In this document: piece after piece, positions 34,058-39,843 of the stretch | Position numbering within the stretch: position 1 is the first letter of the stretch | Layout: each line of letters begins with the position of its first letter | NCBI GenBank assembly: GCA_029247365.1 | Contig: JAQWLJ010000033.1 | Span: 124,001-188,000, forward strand | DNA length: 64,000 bases | Direction: 5' to 3' | DNA from: Acidimicrobiales bacterium | GTDB lineage: Bacteria; Actinomycetota; Acidimicrobiia; Acidimicrobiales; Aldehydirespiratoraceae | Translations under genes and position numbers: made by a program | Notes under the pieces: model-generated | What the model was told of the DNA's origin: nothing | The model's input: the letters and a program-made list of their open reading frames with translations, nothing else | The model's database searches: none

Positions 34058-35335
34058 GTGACGCCGATGCCGCTCACCCTTGACGACCGCGACCAGGCAC
34101 TTCTCAACGGCGCCGGCGGTGCTGCCGCTGCGCTCGCAATGCGCGTCGTCAGCCGCACCGCCGAAGTAATGCAAGCCCAGCGCCTGATCGACATCACCGG
34201 TGCCCACATCGATTCCTGCCTCTACAACGGCCAAGCAAGCGTCGACTTCGCCCAACGGCTCGCCGACGGTGGCGCCCAGGTATCGGTACCTGCCACGCTC
34301 AACGTCAGCTCCCTCGACCTGATCCACCCCGAACTCTTTCGAGGCGACGCCCATACCGCTGAGCAAGGGCGGCGGCTGATGGAGCTCTACGAGGGAATGG
34401 GCTGCCGACCGACGTTCACGTGCGCGCCGTATCAGGAGGACAACCGCCCGAACCTCGGCGAGCATGTCGTGTGGGCCGAGTCGAACGCGATCGTGTTCGC
34501 GAACTCCGTCCTCGGCGCCCGCACGCACCGCTATGGCGACTTTCTCGACATCTCTGCTGCGATCACCGGCCGCGCTCCGCTCGCCGGCCTGCATCTCGAC
34601 GCCAACCGCCGAGCAACGGTCGTGTTCGACGTGAGCGGCTTGCCCGAGCGGCTGACCGCACTCGACGCGTTCTACCCGTTGCTCGGTCACCACATCGGCC
34701 GGCAGGTCGGAAAAGCCGTACCAGTCGTGGTCGGTGCCCCGGACGGGGTGGCCGAACACGCACTCAAGGCCCTCGGGGCAGCCGGCGCAGCCGCTGGCGC
34801 GGTCGGCATGTTTCACCTCGTCGGCTCGACTCCGGAGGCGCCAACCCTCGATGCGGCGCTCGGTGGGGAACCCGCCGCGCAAACCCATGCGGTGACGACG
34901 GCCGATATCCGGCTGGCTCGAGATCAGCTGACGACCTCGTCGTCGTCTCGGCTCGGCGTCGTCAGTTTGGGCACGCCGCACTACTCGGTCGCCGAATTCG
35001 GACGGGTTGTCGACCTGCTCGACGACCGACCGATCCACCCGAGCGTTCGGCTCTACATCAACACCGGACGCAGCGTTGCCAACGAGATTGCGTTGCGGGG
35101 CTGGACGCCTCGTCTCGAGGCCAGCGGCGTGCAGATCGTGACCGACACCTGCACCTACATCACCCCGATCATCGAAGCCGTCGACGGGATCGCCATGACC
35201 GACTCGGCGAAGTGGGCCTACTACGCCCCTGGAAATCTGGGTCTCGATGTCGCCTTCGGCTCGGTGGAGGACTGTGTCGAGTCCGCTGTGCGAGGCGAGA
35301 TCGTGCGCGATGAGAGCGTGTGGGCCGATGCCTGA
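34058..35335 (+). CDS. AcnX-type dehydratase, large (catalytic) subunit (DUF521)
   Basis: Aconitase-X family, 425 residues. The hallmarks are RLIDITGAHIDSCLYNG, TFTCAPYQ, VVWAESNAIVFANSVLGARTHRYGDFLD and TDTCTYI. The Cys in SCLYNG, TCAPYQ and TDTCTY are the probable Fe-S or metal ligands. Bacterial members include cis-3-hydroxy-L-proline dehydratase, which makes Delta1-pyrroline-2-carboxylate. Archaeal members act on mevalonate 5-phosphate. The neighbouring ornithine cyclodeaminase-like gene favours the hydroxyproline option. The GTG at 34058 is chosen; ATG 34067 is the alternative. It overlaps the small subunit by 8 bp. Confidence 0.86.
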   Translation: MTPMPLTLDDRDQALLNGAGGAAAALAMRVVSRTAEVMQAQRLIDITGAHIDSCLYNGQASVDFAQRLADGGAQVSVPATLNVSSLDLIHPELFRGDAHTAEQGRRLMELYEGMGCRPTFTCAPYQEDNRPNLGEHVVWAESNAIVFANSVLGARTHRYGDFLDISAAITGRAPLAGLHLDANRRATVVFDVSGLPERLTALDAFYPLLGHHIGRQVGKAVPVVVGAPDGVAEHALKALGAAGAAAGAVGMFHLVGSTPEAPTLDAALGGEPAAQTHAVTTADIRLARDQLTTSSSSRLGVVSLGTPHYSVAEFGRVVDLLDDRPIHPSVRLYINTGRSVANEIALRGWTPRLEASGVQIVTDTCTYITPIIEAVDGIAMTDSAKWAYYAPGNLGLDVAFGSVEDCVESAVRGEIVRDESVWADA

Positions 35336-35738
35336 GGCCGAACGAGTCCTGATGCCCGGCGAGGCACGCGGCCCGGTCCTTCACCTCGAAGAGCCGGTCA
35401 GCTTCTGGGGTGGCCTTGACCCGAAGACCGGCATCATCATTGACCAAGCCCATCCCCAGGTGGGCGAATCCGTCGTCGGCCGCATCCTTGTGATGCCGTC
35501 GGGCCGAGGTTCGAGCAGCGGTTCATCGGTGCTGACCGAGGTGCTCCGGGCCGGGATCGGACCGGCCGGCATCGTCATGCAGCAGGCCGACGAAATCTTC
35601 GTGATCGGCGTCCTTGCCGCCGAAGAGCTTTACGACATCACGGTGCCGGTCTTTACGGTCGATACAGCGACCTACACCGCCCTCGCCGCCGCCTCTGCCG
35701 TGCTGATGACGCCGGACGGCACGATTACAGCCGGTTGA
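35328..35738 (+). CDS. AcnX-type dehydratase, small (swivel) subunit (DUF126)
   Basis: A 136-residue swivel domain. VLHLEEPVSFWGGLDPKTGIIIDQAHPQVGESVVGRILVMPSGRGSSSGSSVLTE is the family core; the segments FWGGLDP and PSGRGSSSGSSV are nearly diagnostic. It sits just after the large subunit with an 8-bp overlap, which is the usual split arrangement. The start ATG at 35328 gives the normal length. It would supply the phosphate- or carboxylate-binding swivel for the catalytic subunit. Confidence 0.88.
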   Translation: MPEAERVLMPGEARGPVLHLEEPVSFWGGLDPKTGIIIDQAHPQVGESVVGRILVMPSGRGSSSGSSVLTEVLRAGIGPAGIVMQQADEIFVIGVLAAEELYDITVPVFTVDTATYTALAAASAVLMTPDGTITAG

Positions 35739-35834
35739 ACGAGAGAAGCATTTGCCGTTCATTGTCGACGAGCCCGACGAGACGTCATTCATCTGCCGGT
35801 CAGGGCGCGAACGACAGCTCGCTACCGCTCACGG

Positions 35835-36764
35835 TCAGCCGGTCGCGAGCTGAGCGGCCGCCAGGTCTTCGAGTGCGGTTCCCGCCGACTTGAACATCGT
35901 GATCTCGTCGTCGCTGCTGCGACCGGGATGCGTGCCGGCGACGAGATCGGCGAGATCGGCGACCAGATCAGCACGGGTGAGAACCCCAGATTCGAGTGGT
36001 TGCGCAATATCGCCTGCGATGACCGCATCGTCGTAGGTGTCGACGAAAACCGATGCCCGGCGCACGACGTCATCGTCGGCTTCGCGCATGGCGTGGTTAA
36101 ATCCACCGATCAGATCGACGTGAGCACCCGGGCGCAGCAGTTCACCGCGAACAATCGGCTGGGTGGCTCCGGTGACACACGAGATCACGTCGGCTTGCGC
36201 CACCGCCGTGTCGAGATCAGGGACCACCTCGGCCGAGAGACCCTCCGCAGCGACTGCATCGACGACAGCCTCGGCCTTCGCGGCATCGCGCCCCCACACC
36301 CAGATCGAGTCGAAGTCCCGAACCGCAGCATGGGCCTGCGCCGCCATGGGGGCGAGGGCACCGGAGCCGACGATCAGCAGCGTTCGAGCATCGGCCCGGG
36401 CGAGCCGCTTCGCGGCGACCGCCGAGGCGGCTGCGGTGCGGCGAGTGGTCAGCACGTTTGCCTCACACGCGCCCACGAGCGACCCGGTCGCGCCGTCGAA
36501 CAACAGCATGCCAGCCTGCACCATCGGGAGATCCTGAGCGCCATTGTCGGGGAACACGGTTACGGCCTTCACGCCGATCAGTTCGCCGGCGACCCATCCA
36601 GGTTTCAGCAGAAACGATGCGTCATTCCCTTTGCCGTCGGGCACCGTATGGAGTGTGCGGGCGGGCGCGGTTGCACCCGGCTCGACCAGGATCTGTTCGA
36701 TCGACTCGATCAGTGCGGGCCACGGCAGCGCCGCGCCGATGTCGGCGTCGGTGAAGAACCTCAT
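35835..36764 (-). CDS. Ornithine cyclodeaminase/mu-crystallin family protein; possible Delta1-pyrroline-2-carboxylate reductase
   Basis: 309 residues. NAD(P)-binding motif LIVGSGALAPMAAQAH; upstream LIGVKAVTVFPDNG carries the family Lys; GATGSLVGACEANVLTTRRTAAASAVAAK is the typical bridge. Close homologues reduce Delta1-pyrroline-2-carboxylate to L-proline or act as ornithine cyclodeaminase or ketimine reductase. Convergent acnX genes favour the first. Start ATG 36764 overlaps the Sec-gene stop by 4 bp (ATGA), so it is in the same transcription unit as the AhpD-like gene. A longer start (36779) would lie inside that gene. Confidence 0.86.
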   Translation of the reverse strand: MRFFTDADIGAALPWPALIESIEQILVEPGATAPARTLHTVPDGKGNDASFLLKPGWVAGELIGVKAVTVFPDNGAQDLPMVQAGMLLFDGATGSLVGACEANVLTTRRTAAASAVAAKRLARADARTLLIVGSGALAPMAAQAHAAVRDFDSIWVWGRDAAKAEAVVDAVAAEGLSAEVVPDLDTAVAQADVISCVTGATQPIVRGELLRPGAHVDLIGGFNHAMREADDDVVRRASVFVDTYDDAVIAGDIAQPLESGVLTRADLVADLADLVAGTHPGRSSDDEITMFKSAGTALEDLAAAQLATG

Positions 36765-37342
36765 CTGTCCTCGCCCCAATGGCCCATCGGCGGCTCTGGC
36801 GGATACCAGTCCTCTACCTCGATCCCGAGGCCATCAGCAATCCGGTTGGCGTACGCGTAGTAGGCCGTCACTTCGCAGATATCGAGGACATCGCGGTCGG
36901 TGAAGCCGACAGCCCGTAGAGCGTCGACGTCAGCCTCGACCATTTCGCCCGGCGCCTGCGTGAGCTTCACCGCATAGGTGAGCATCGCGACCCGCTTCGA
37001 ATCGAGCCCCGCGGTCTCCCAGCCCTCGTCGATCCGAGCCACTAGCGCGTCGTCTTTCAGGAGCCGGCGCAGACCGCGCCGGTGGTGTGTGAGTCAATAG
37101 TGACAATCGTTGATGTCGGAAACGACGTAGGCGACCAACTCACGCTCGGCCTTTCGAAGCGTCTTCGTTCCCGCCATCGCCGAGCGGTACAGCCCATCGT
37201 GGGCGGCGACGCTCGCAGCGTTGAGCGAGTGGACGCTCATGATGTTGTCGATCCGGTTCGCACCGCGGTCAGCAACCCGCTCACGGAGCGGTTCGAGATC
37301 GCCGCTCCACTCATCGTCCGGGACCCGTTCGATCCACGCCAT
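36761..37342 (-). CDS. AhpD/carboxymuconolactone-decarboxylase-like selenoprotein (CHYU; TGA read as Sec)
   Basis: Peroxidase-related protein of about 193 residues if the TGA at 37094-37096 (codon 83) is read through. The N-terminal part ends ...VVSDINDCHY; the reading frame then continues LTHHRRGLRRLLKDD and, further on, YAVKLTQAPGEMVEADV and YAYANRIADGLGI, all family-typical. The usual motif is CxYCVxHH, so the TGA replaces the second Cys of CxxC, giving CHYU. The SECIS-like hairpin (37064-37082) lies 11 nt after the TGA. Strong ribosome site AGGAGGAG before ATG 37342. The two halves share one frame and only one base change from Cys. If not recoded, it would be a fresh nonsense pseudogene. 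The OCD-like gene is coupled downstream. Confidence 0.82.
37064..37096 (-). promoter_or_regulatory. Bacterial SECIS element, with the TGA
   Basis: From the TGA (37096-37094) there are 11 nt to a perfect 7-bp hairpin, CCGGCGC / GCGCCGG, whose loop is GGUCU (37071-37075). The number of nucleotides from the U of UGA to GGUCU (21) is the same as in Escherichia coli fdhF, and that loop also carries GGUCU. The E. coli element has a bulged U in the stem that is absent here. The hairpin is entirely inside the coding frame, as bacterial SECIS elements are. Confidence 0.8.
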
Positions 37343-37366
37343 GGCCGCTCCTCCTGTAGGCCGCGG

Positions 37367-37376
37367 ACGCTAGCGT
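37367..37376. promoter_or_regulatory. Short palindrome in a 41-bp divergent gap
   Basis: ACGCTAGCGT is a 10-bp perfect palindrome between the AhpD-like gene (start 37342) and the SDR gene (start 37384). It may be an operator for the divergent pair; length alone makes chance occurrence possible. Confidence 0.25.
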
Positions 37377-37383
37377 ACGGCGC

Positions 37384-38190
37384 ATGACTCACCCGGATCT
37401 CGCAGGAAAGGTCGTCGTCGTTACCGGCGCCGGCAAGGGAATCGGCCAGGCGATCGCTGAGCGCTTCGGCTCGGTCGGCTCGTCGGTGGTCGTCAACGAC
37501 GTTGACGCAGCGACAGCCGGGGCGGTGGCCGCCGGAATCAACGACGAAGGTGGCACTGCGATCGCAGCGGCTGCCGACGTCTCCGACGGCGAGCAGGTCC
37601 AGGGCGTCTTCGATGCCACGATCGAAGCCTTCGGCACCGTCGACGTGCTGGTCAACAACGCGGGCCTCGTCAGCCCGATGCTGCACTTCTTCGATGCCGA
37701 CGAAGCATGGTGGCGACGGATCATCGATGTGAACCTCACCGGGCACTTCCTATGCGGTCACGTCGCCGCCCGCATCATGGCAAAGAAGGGCGGCGGCTCG
37801 ATCATCAATATGAGCTCCGGGGGAGCCACACGAGCCCATCGAAGCTTCACCGCCTACGACGCAAGCAAGGGTGGCATCGAGGCCCTTACTCGCGCCATGG
37901 CGCTCGACCTTGGGCCCTACAACGTGCGAGTCAACGCCTTGATGCCCGGCTCGATCGACACCGCAGGTATGGACACCGAAGCGCGCGCCTACCGCGGGGT
38001 CAACATCCCTGCAGGGCGAATCGGCGACCCGTACGACATGACCGGGCCCGCGCTGTTCCTCGCCAGCGAAGACTCGAGCTACGTCACCGGCGATGTCCTC
38101 AAGGTCGATGGCGGCATGCTCGCCCAGCAGCGCTCAGCGACCGTCGACATCGTCCACCCCGACACATTCCCCGCAGTCGAAGACCTCTAG
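37384..38190 (+). CDS. SDR-family NAD(P)-dependent oxidoreductase
   Basis: Classical short-chain dehydrogenase, 268 residues. Cofactor motif TGAGKGIG is at 14-21, NNAG is at about 98, the Ser of INMSSGG and Tyr/Lys of YDASKGG form the catalytic triad, and a long C-terminus ends FPAVEDL. The presence of Asp at the end of the second strand (VVVNDVDAAT) favours NAD over NADP (inference). The TPP-enzyme gene follows 3 bp after the stop. The substrate, perhaps a hydroxy acid or a sugar acid, is unknown. Confidence 0.9.
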   Translation: MTHPDLAGKVVVVTGAGKGIGQAIAERFGSVGSSVVVNDVDAATAGAVAAGINDEGGTAIAAAADVSDGEQVQGVFDATIEAFGTVDVLVNNAGLVSPMLHFFDADEAWWRRIIDVNLTGHFLCGHVAARIMAKKGGGSIINMSSGGATRAHRSFTAYDASKGGIEALTRAMALDLGPYNVRVNALMPGSIDTAGMDTEARAYRGVNIPAGRIGDPYDMTGPALFLASEDSSYVTGDVLKVDGGMLAQQRSATVDIVHPDTFPAVEDL

Positions 38191-38193
38191 CCC

Positions 38194-39843
38194 GTGGGCG
38201 CCACCCGCACCGGCGGCCAGATCGTGGTCGACACCCTCGTCTCCCACGGGGTCACCCACGCCTTCGGCGTGCCGGGCGAGAGCTACCTGGCCGTGCTCGA
38301 CGCGCTCCACGACACCGACATCAACTTCGTTATCTGCCGCCAGGAAGGCGGAGCTGCCTACATGGCCGAAGCCTGGGGCCGACTCACCGGCTCCCCCGGA
38401 ATCTGCCTGGTCACGCGCGGGCCGGGCGCCACCAACGCCTCGGTCGGCATCCACGCCGCCCGTGAAAACTCACAACCGGTGGTGGTGCTGATCGGGCAAG
38501 TCAGTACCCATGAGATGGGGCGCGAAGCCTTTCAAGAGGTCGACTACCGGCGCTTTCTCGGACCGCTCACCAAATGGGTGACCCAAGTCGACGATGTCGA
38601 CGACCTGGCCGAGACGATGCAGTATGCGTTCAAGATCGCGGTGTCGGGCCGTCCCGGACCGGTGGCAGTCGCACTGCCCGAAGACATGCTCCGGGCTTCG
38701 ACCGAGGTAACCAACGTGGCCCCGTTCGAGGTCGAACGGGCCACGCCGACCAGCACCGAGATCGACGCAATCGTTGCTGAACTGGCAGGGGCTGAACGGC
38801 CGGTCATCATCGCCGGCGGTGGCCGTTGGACCCTCGACGCTCGCGCCGACCTGGCCGCCTTCGCCGAGACCAACGACATCCCAGTCGTCACCGCGTGGCG
38901 GTTCCACGACCTGATGGACAACCACAGCGACCACTACGTGGGTGAGGCAGGCATCAGCATGCTTGCACCCGTGCGCGACACGATCATCGATGCCGATGTC
39001 ATCGTCGGACTCGGCATTCGCTTCGGCGAGATGACCACCGCTGCCTGGACGCTGATCGACCTCAACGAACCCGAGCAGCGGATCGTTCACGTGCATCCCG
39101 AGCGAACCCAGATCGGCCGGATCTACCCAACCACGGTTGGCGTCTGCGGTGACCCGTCGGTGACGATCGGCCTCCTGCGCAACCGCACCGTGACGGGAGC
39201 TGCACAGCGGGCCGAGTGGCGGGCCACGCGTCGGGCTGCGTTCCTCGATGGGTTCGGAGCGCCACCCCAACCCGGCGACCTCGACATGGCCGAGGGGATG
39301 CGGTGGCTCGAAGCCAACCTCCCCGACGACGTGATCATCACCAACGGAGCCGGCAACTTCTCGATCTGGAATGGAAAGCTATTCCGTTACGGTGCCGATG
39401 CTCGGCTCCTAGCTCCCCAGAACGGCACCATGGGGTACGGCTTGCCAGCTGCGATCGCGGCCAAGGCTGCTCATCCCGACCGCACCGTCATCTGCTTCGC
39501 TGGCGACGGTGACCTCCAGATGACGATGCAGGAGCTGGGAACGGCCCGTCAGGCCGGGCTCGAGCCCATCGTGCTCGTATTCGACAATGCGATGTACGGC
39601 ACGATCCGAGCCCACCAGGAACGCAACTATCCCGAACGCATCAGCGGCACGCCGATTGTCAACCCCGACTTCGTTGCCATCGCCGAGGCCTACGGTATGC
39701 ACGCCGAGCGGGTCGAACGAACTGCGCAATTCGGTCCGGCAATGGAGCGAGCGATGGCATCACCGACCGGAGCACTCCTGCACCTACTGATGCCCCCCGA
39801 TCGGTTGACGCCATGGGCGTCCGTCGACGATTTTCGGGCCTGA
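38194..39843 (+). CDS. Thiamine-pyrophosphate enzyme, acetolactate synthase-like
   Basis: A 549-residue TPP enzyme with all three domains. The N-terminal part has FGVPGESYLAVLDAL and the catalytic-Glu segment CRQEGGAAYMAEAWGRL. Middle: PVIIAGGGRW. C-terminal TPP-binding motif GDGDLQMTMQELGTARQAGLEPIVLVFDN, with Mg ligands GDG and N. Related enzymes include acetolactate synthase, glyoxylate carboligase and benzoylformate decarboxylase; the GENPQ flavin region cannot settle it. Immediately after the SDR gene (3-bp gap, GTG start), so they likely work together. Confidence 0.87.
   Translation: MGATRTGGQIVVDTLVSHGVTHAFGVPGESYLAVLDALHDTDINFVICRQEGGAAYMAEAWGRLTGSPGICLVTRGPGATNASVGIHAARENSQPVVVLIGQVSTHEMGREAFQEVDYRRFLGPLTKWVTQVDDVDDLAETMQYAFKIAVSGRPGPVAVALPEDMLRASTEVTNVAPFEVERATPTSTEIDAIVAELAGAERPVIIAGGGRWTLDARADLAAFAETNDIPVVTAWRFHDLMDNHSDHYVGEAGISMLAPVRDTIIDADVIVGLGIRFGEMTTAAWTLIDLNEPEQRIVHVHPERTQIGRIYPTTVGVCGDPSVTIGLLRNRTVTGAAQRAEWRATRRAAFLDGFGAPPQPGDLDMAEGMRWLEANLPDDVIITNGAGNFSIWNGKLFRYGADARLLAPQNGTMGYGLPAAIAAKAAHPDRTVICFAGDGDLQMTMQELGTARQAGLEPIVLVFDNAMYGTIRAHQERNYPERISGTPIVNPDFVAIAEAYGMHAERVERTAQFGPAMERAMASPTGALLHLLMPPDRLTPWASVDDFRA

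Follow-up and report, generated by a model that had tools for sequence, protein, structure and literature searches.

Does an in-frame TGA within an AhpD-like gene mark a broken gene, or a codon that is read as selenocysteine (Sec)? The question is raised by a locus of the window, by which we mean the whole 64,000-nucleotide stretch of DNA analyzed here, part of contig C40 of an Acidimicrobiales genome (G000; 3.1 Mb, 75 contigs, 98% completeness). Under table 11 the gene falls into two ORFs, which the initial annotation proposed to be halves of a single probable selenoprotein with a CHYU active site. Our analysis supports this proposal through the Sec machinery, the conserved TGA, a SECIS hairpin and the Cys-containing homologs. 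The gene almost certainly encodes an AhpD-like, Sec-containing oxidoreductase that belongs to the 'peroxidase-related' family TIGR01926/COG2128 and in which UGA is read as Sec, hereafter Sec-AhpD.

The AhpD-like frame and its active site

The coordinates first assigned to the gene are correct when taken on the minus strand (Table 1). Sec-AhpD opens with an ATG at 37342-37340, ahead of which the ribosome-binding site claimed for it is indeed present, and closes with a TGA at 36763-36761; the sole interruption of its 193 codons is the TGA at 37096-37094, within CHYU. The two halves share one frame and form one AhpD-like protein. The translation matches Pfam CMD (1.5e-10) and the NCBIfam model TIGR01926 (132.3 bits against a curated cut-off of 81.8), both matches extend across the TGA, and a search of the DNA with TIGR01926 returned 124.6 bits. 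Moreover, alignment with homologs places a Cys at the position of the in-frame TGA (L050, L051, L060, L062, L099 and others), confirming that the codon occupies the site of the second Cys of CxYC.

Table 1. Features of the Sec-AhpD locus (window positions) and further CxxU frames of the same genome (contig positions).
Feature	Position	Strand	Basis or remark
Sec-AhpD gene	36761..37342	-	193 codons; CHYU = residues 80-83; signature E68-x11-C80-x2-U83-x3-H87
Sec codon UGA, residue 83	37094..37096	-	aligns with second Cys of CxxC
Ribosome-binding site AGGAGGAG	37348..37355	-	upstream of Sec-AhpD ATG
Bacterial SECIS hairpin	37064..37082	-	stem CCGGCGC/GCGCCGG; loop GGUCU (37075-37071); 18 nt 3' of UGA
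Delta1-pyrroline-2-carboxylate/piperideine-2-carboxylate reductase, ornithine cyclodeaminase family	35835..36764	-	NF004793 364.8 bits (cut-off 322); PF02423; synteny
Aconitase X gene of split pair	34058..35335	+	PF04412 6.4e-132; NF051439 414.5 bits; conserved context, outside the selenoprotein
Aconitase X swivel subunit	35247..35738	+	PF01989 2.2e-27; NF051439 2.7e-39; start codon not settled
Short-chain dehydrogenase (SDR), divergent neighbor	37384..38190	+	conserved synteny
Acetolactate-synthase-like thiamine pyrophosphate (TPP) enzyme	38194..39843	+	NF006052 715.5 bits; conserved synteny
CFYU frame (L162)	C69:10579-10851		G000; TGA in CxxU, hairpin
CFFU frame (L163)	C59:15153-15512		G000; TGA in CxxU, hairpin
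CPTU frame (L161)	C15:22785-23102		G000; TGA in CxxU, hairpin

Structure prediction gave an all-helical model with the AhpD fold (pLDDT 77.5, core over 90), and the protein carries the E-x11-C-x2-C/U-x3-H motif. The closest PDB matches of the model, 2pfx and 3c1l (E about 1e-9), are peroxidase-related AhpD proteins, also by sequence. In Mycobacterium tuberculosis AhpD (1knc/1gu9), a proton relay is backed by mutagenesis (PMC3141380). Motif alignment equates U83 with Cys133, C80 with Cys130, and E68 and H87 with Glu118 and His137 of the relay, and the putative roles of these four residues are assigned on that alignment. The two proteins have the Glu-x11-Cys-x2-Cys-x3-His active-site pattern in common, whereas their identity is 9-10% and their fold match weak; the second position of the mycobacterial enzyme is Cys rather than Sec, and its His132 corresponds to Tyr82. 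The Pseudomonas aeruginosa protein PA0269 (2o4d/2ijc), a weak H2O2 peroxidase, resembles Sec-AhpD in its CxYC with a third-position Tyr and in its pair of helices (TM against the model, by target length, about 0.85), but is a shorter protein of the Cys form, with about 22% identity. Sec-AhpD is predicted from its sequence to act as a thiol/selenol peroxidase or disulfide reductase. The U83 selenolate probably attacks peroxide or another oxidized substrate, after which C80 would resolve the intermediate as a selenenylsulfide, to be reduced in turn by a thiol donor.

Sec machinery and the SECIS hairpin

The genome contains all four of selA, selB, selC and selD. The tRNA-Sec gene lies at C51:5269 (64 bits, over the cut-off; anticodon TCA by ARAGORN), and SelA (C51:20994, 374.5 bits) adjoins SelB (C51:22124, 289.3 bits). 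Weaker matches to the tRNA-Sec model elsewhere in the genome were taken as ordinary tRNAs. SelD (L020, C4:70200-71126) contains an in-frame TGA of its own, within GAGUGCK, and judged by its sequence is itself a selenoprotein.

The hairpin of 7 bp and a 5-nt loop (-15.1 kcal/mol) fits the bacterial SECIS model at its 18-nt spacing, satisfying all published criteria: a loop of 3-9 nt, a stem of 4-16 bp, a G within the first two loop positions, a distance of 16-37 nt from the UGA and an MFE of -7.5 or below (PMC13188914). Its energy is unremarkable against shuffles in G+C-rich DNA (z -0.91) and lends no support by itself. Comparable GGTC hairpins follow 7 of the 1691 TGAs on both strands of the window, six of them besides the one in Sec-AhpD. 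It is conservation, rather than energy or uniqueness, that sets the hairpin apart from chance, and the SECIS assignment rests on it.

Among 52 distinct orthologs, selected by the TGA and an HHRRGLR motif (a selection that fixes amino acids, not synonymous bases), the loop codons GGT and CTG are invariant in all 52. The flanking CGG, CGC and CGC codons vary little in the same set: their same-codon probability is 0.82-0.92, compared with a mean of 0.51 for other well-conserved columns and 0.31-0.42 for other Gly columns (third-base identity). Leu and Gly codons outside the hairpin loop vary freely. In 13 distinct hairpins, 91% of cells are paired and two-sided changes occur at three pairs, more than in almost every shuffle and in every slid control. 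A second Sec subfamily, which includes a lineage of about 1-Mb genomes, has a differently paired SECIS of the form GAYCTC/GAGRTC, one pair of which shows two-sided changes in four cells. In a distant relative (L049, 36% identity) the GGUC loop persists, although its stem, CGGAGAA/UUCUCCG, is unrelated. The fdhF gene of E. coli has a similar GGUCU loop at a similar spacing.

Distribution of the TGA and alternative readings

Of 60 relatives searched, 27 have an orthologous or closely related gene in which this codon is TGA, and all 27 possess SelA. The named relatives among the GTDB contigs are Acidimicrobiales/Acidimicrobiaceae MAGs. When the best 28 matches in 61 genomes (our own included) are aligned, the codon is TGA in every one, at identities of 36-91%. 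SelA scored over the cut-off in 28/28 genomes with the gene, and the gene occurred in 0/13 genomes without an over-cut-off selA, a co-occurrence inflated by the relatedness of these genomes, which are not 28 independent trials. Of the strong matches in 395 genomes from the class and 396 from the phylum, most contain one TGA, the position of which was confirmed at the Sec codon for the matches fetched as loci. The relatives keep the TGA and show no further frame damage. The sole exception found in the orthologous clade, L089 (G349 C116:218-763), has TTA (Leu) at the Sec codon and an intact SECIS in which a G-C pair has become U-A by compensated change; its assembly is 79% complete in about 500 contigs. 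Either Sec was lost here recently, in which case residue 83 is not absolutely kept, or the G349 assembly is wrong.

Within a tree of 102 proteins, some long branches of which are unsure and in which the Leu form L089 was scored as Cys, the Sec and Cys forms show strong clustering and require a minimum of three changes. Sec was therefore probably gained or lost more than once in this family. In its lineage of very small genomes (L119-L127 and L138; family f46 of the same class, about 1 Mb), the second Sec-AhpD subfamily has a CEYU site, one copy per genome and the SECIS UCUCC-GGUC-GGAGA. Family f83 (L101, L102) carries a CLFU form within an otherwise Cys branch, with a different hairpin, GGCGCCGAGUUGCGGCGCC, and perhaps represents an independent Cys-to-Sec change.

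These data allow the alternatives to be weighed. Had an ordinary AhpD-like gene with CxxC suffered a random nonsense mutation, the resulting pseudogene would have just such a TGA in its frame and two ORFs under the standard table. This is extremely unlikely, given that the identical codon recurs in dozens of species over the whole range of identity above, that the downstream half is as conserved as the upstream half with no other damage, and that the hairpin codons are frozen. A sequencing or assembly error might be suspected in a draft of 75 contigs, but the same TGA appears in independent assemblies from several projects and the probability of such an error is negligible. An in-frame TGA alone leaves the inserted residue unspecified, and another amino acid might be supplied through reassignment or near-cognate tRNA readthrough. 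However, since Sec-AhpD itself terminates at TGA, the codon is not globally reassigned in this genome, and with the full Sec machinery, a codon exactly at the redox Cys and a SECIS that fits the bacterial model, we regard decoding as any residue other than Sec as highly improbable.

The UGA could also serve mainly as a selenium-sensing switch: when decoding fails, the protein would be cut short and the coupled reductase translated less, such that regulation takes precedence over Sec catalysis. The stop-start overlap, ATGA or similar, that the window shares with many members of the family speaks for this reading, but conservation of the TGA is just as strong at loci that lack such a downstream gene (L036, L037, L040-L042, L044-L048, L059), and the reductase has its own GAGG ahead of its ATG. 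Because the UGA stands at the catalytic Cys and is conserved without the reductase, catalysis explains its conservation better, and we consider a primarily regulatory role very improbable. Returning to the Sec reading, we infer from the gene, the machinery and the conservation observed here that Sec is inserted at this codon: SelB with Sec-tRNA-Sec, bound to the downstream hairpin, would decode UGA 37096-37094 as Sec, and this decoding would yield the CHYU active site.

Known relatives and operon context

Selenoproteins of this kind are already known, and Sec-AhpD is a well-supported further case. The first list of CxxU AhpD-like selenoproteins came from the Sargasso Sea in 2005 (27 sequences, COG2128; PMC1088965), 'AhpD-like 1' selenoproteins are abundant in Global Ocean Sampling data (PMC2398784), and a 2026 catalogue places a CxxU AhpD-like selenoprotein under TIGR01926, with MCB9421940.1 as its example (PMC13188914). 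Sec-AhpD is therefore not new in kind. It has the NCBIfam family, the CxxU position and a SECIS just 3' of the UGA in common with the catalogued protein, from which nothing in kind distinguishes it, and its likeness to MCB9421940.1 is one of family and features; its own are the Acidimicrobiia-type host and the overlap with a pyrroline-2-carboxylate (P2C) reductase gene beside aconitase X. NF041238 (AhpD_rel_CFYUT, the Sargasso 'hypothetical protein 1') likewise combines a CMD/AhpD domain with CxxU, but Sec-AhpD scores 46.4 bits against its cut-off of 175 and so is not a member. In the open-access literature we found no earlier report from Acidimicrobiia or Actinomarina, with hydroxyproline, or on this operon. 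In three more AhpD/CMD-type frames of the same genome the only interruption is a TGA within CxxU, and a hairpin comes after every one of them (Table 1). These are likely further selenoproteins, and the CFYU locus is perhaps of the NF041238 type.

The reductase ATG overlaps the Sec-AhpD stop in an ATGA (36764-36761), through which Sec-AhpD and the reductase may be made together, perhaps as an amino-acid catabolic operon. The surrounding conserved cluster (34058-39843) comprises the split aconitase X, the P2C reductase, Sec-AhpD, the SDR and the TPP enzyme; after it comes a branched-chain amino-acid ABC transporter. The aconitase X gene at 34058..35335 falls below the full-length NF051439 cut-off of 700 bits, the gene being split here. 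Reductase and aconitase X adjoin Sec-AhpD in a large part of the family to which the window's gene belongs, and aconitase X does so also in family f29; elsewhere Sec-AhpD stands without both, which marks the association as local. Aconitase X was rejected as a general partner of the Sec-AhpD family, being near the gene in 2 of 20 loci sampled with flanks of about 6 kb. Bacterial aconitase X supplies a pyrroline-2-carboxylate intermediate to a proline-making reductase (PMC8184944, PMC5144071). To date, the heterodimeric form that has been characterized acts as a mevalonate 5-phosphate dehydratase (PMC8184944), and the substrate of the split enzyme is thus uncertain here. It is conceivable, if doubtful, that Sec-AhpD, rather than being a general peroxidase, serves this cluster as its dedicated redox partner in hydroxyproline/pyrroline-2-carboxylate catabolism, with Sec decoding tying reductase expression to selenium supply via the ATGA.

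The standard code splits this gene, yet Sec-AhpD is encoded in dozens of related genomes of the class and in others of the phylum, and its carriers include a lineage of about 1-Mb genomes. To a known kind of selenoprotein, our analysis adds this clade-wide spread, the three further CxxU candidates in one genome, and the ATGA overlap with a P2C reductase beside an aconitase X pair. The broad sampling of UGA and Cys forms, together with a near-invariant SECIS, makes the family a good case for asking when Sec replaces a redox Cys, and the operon provides a testable metabolic context for the Sec-AhpD selenoprotein family.
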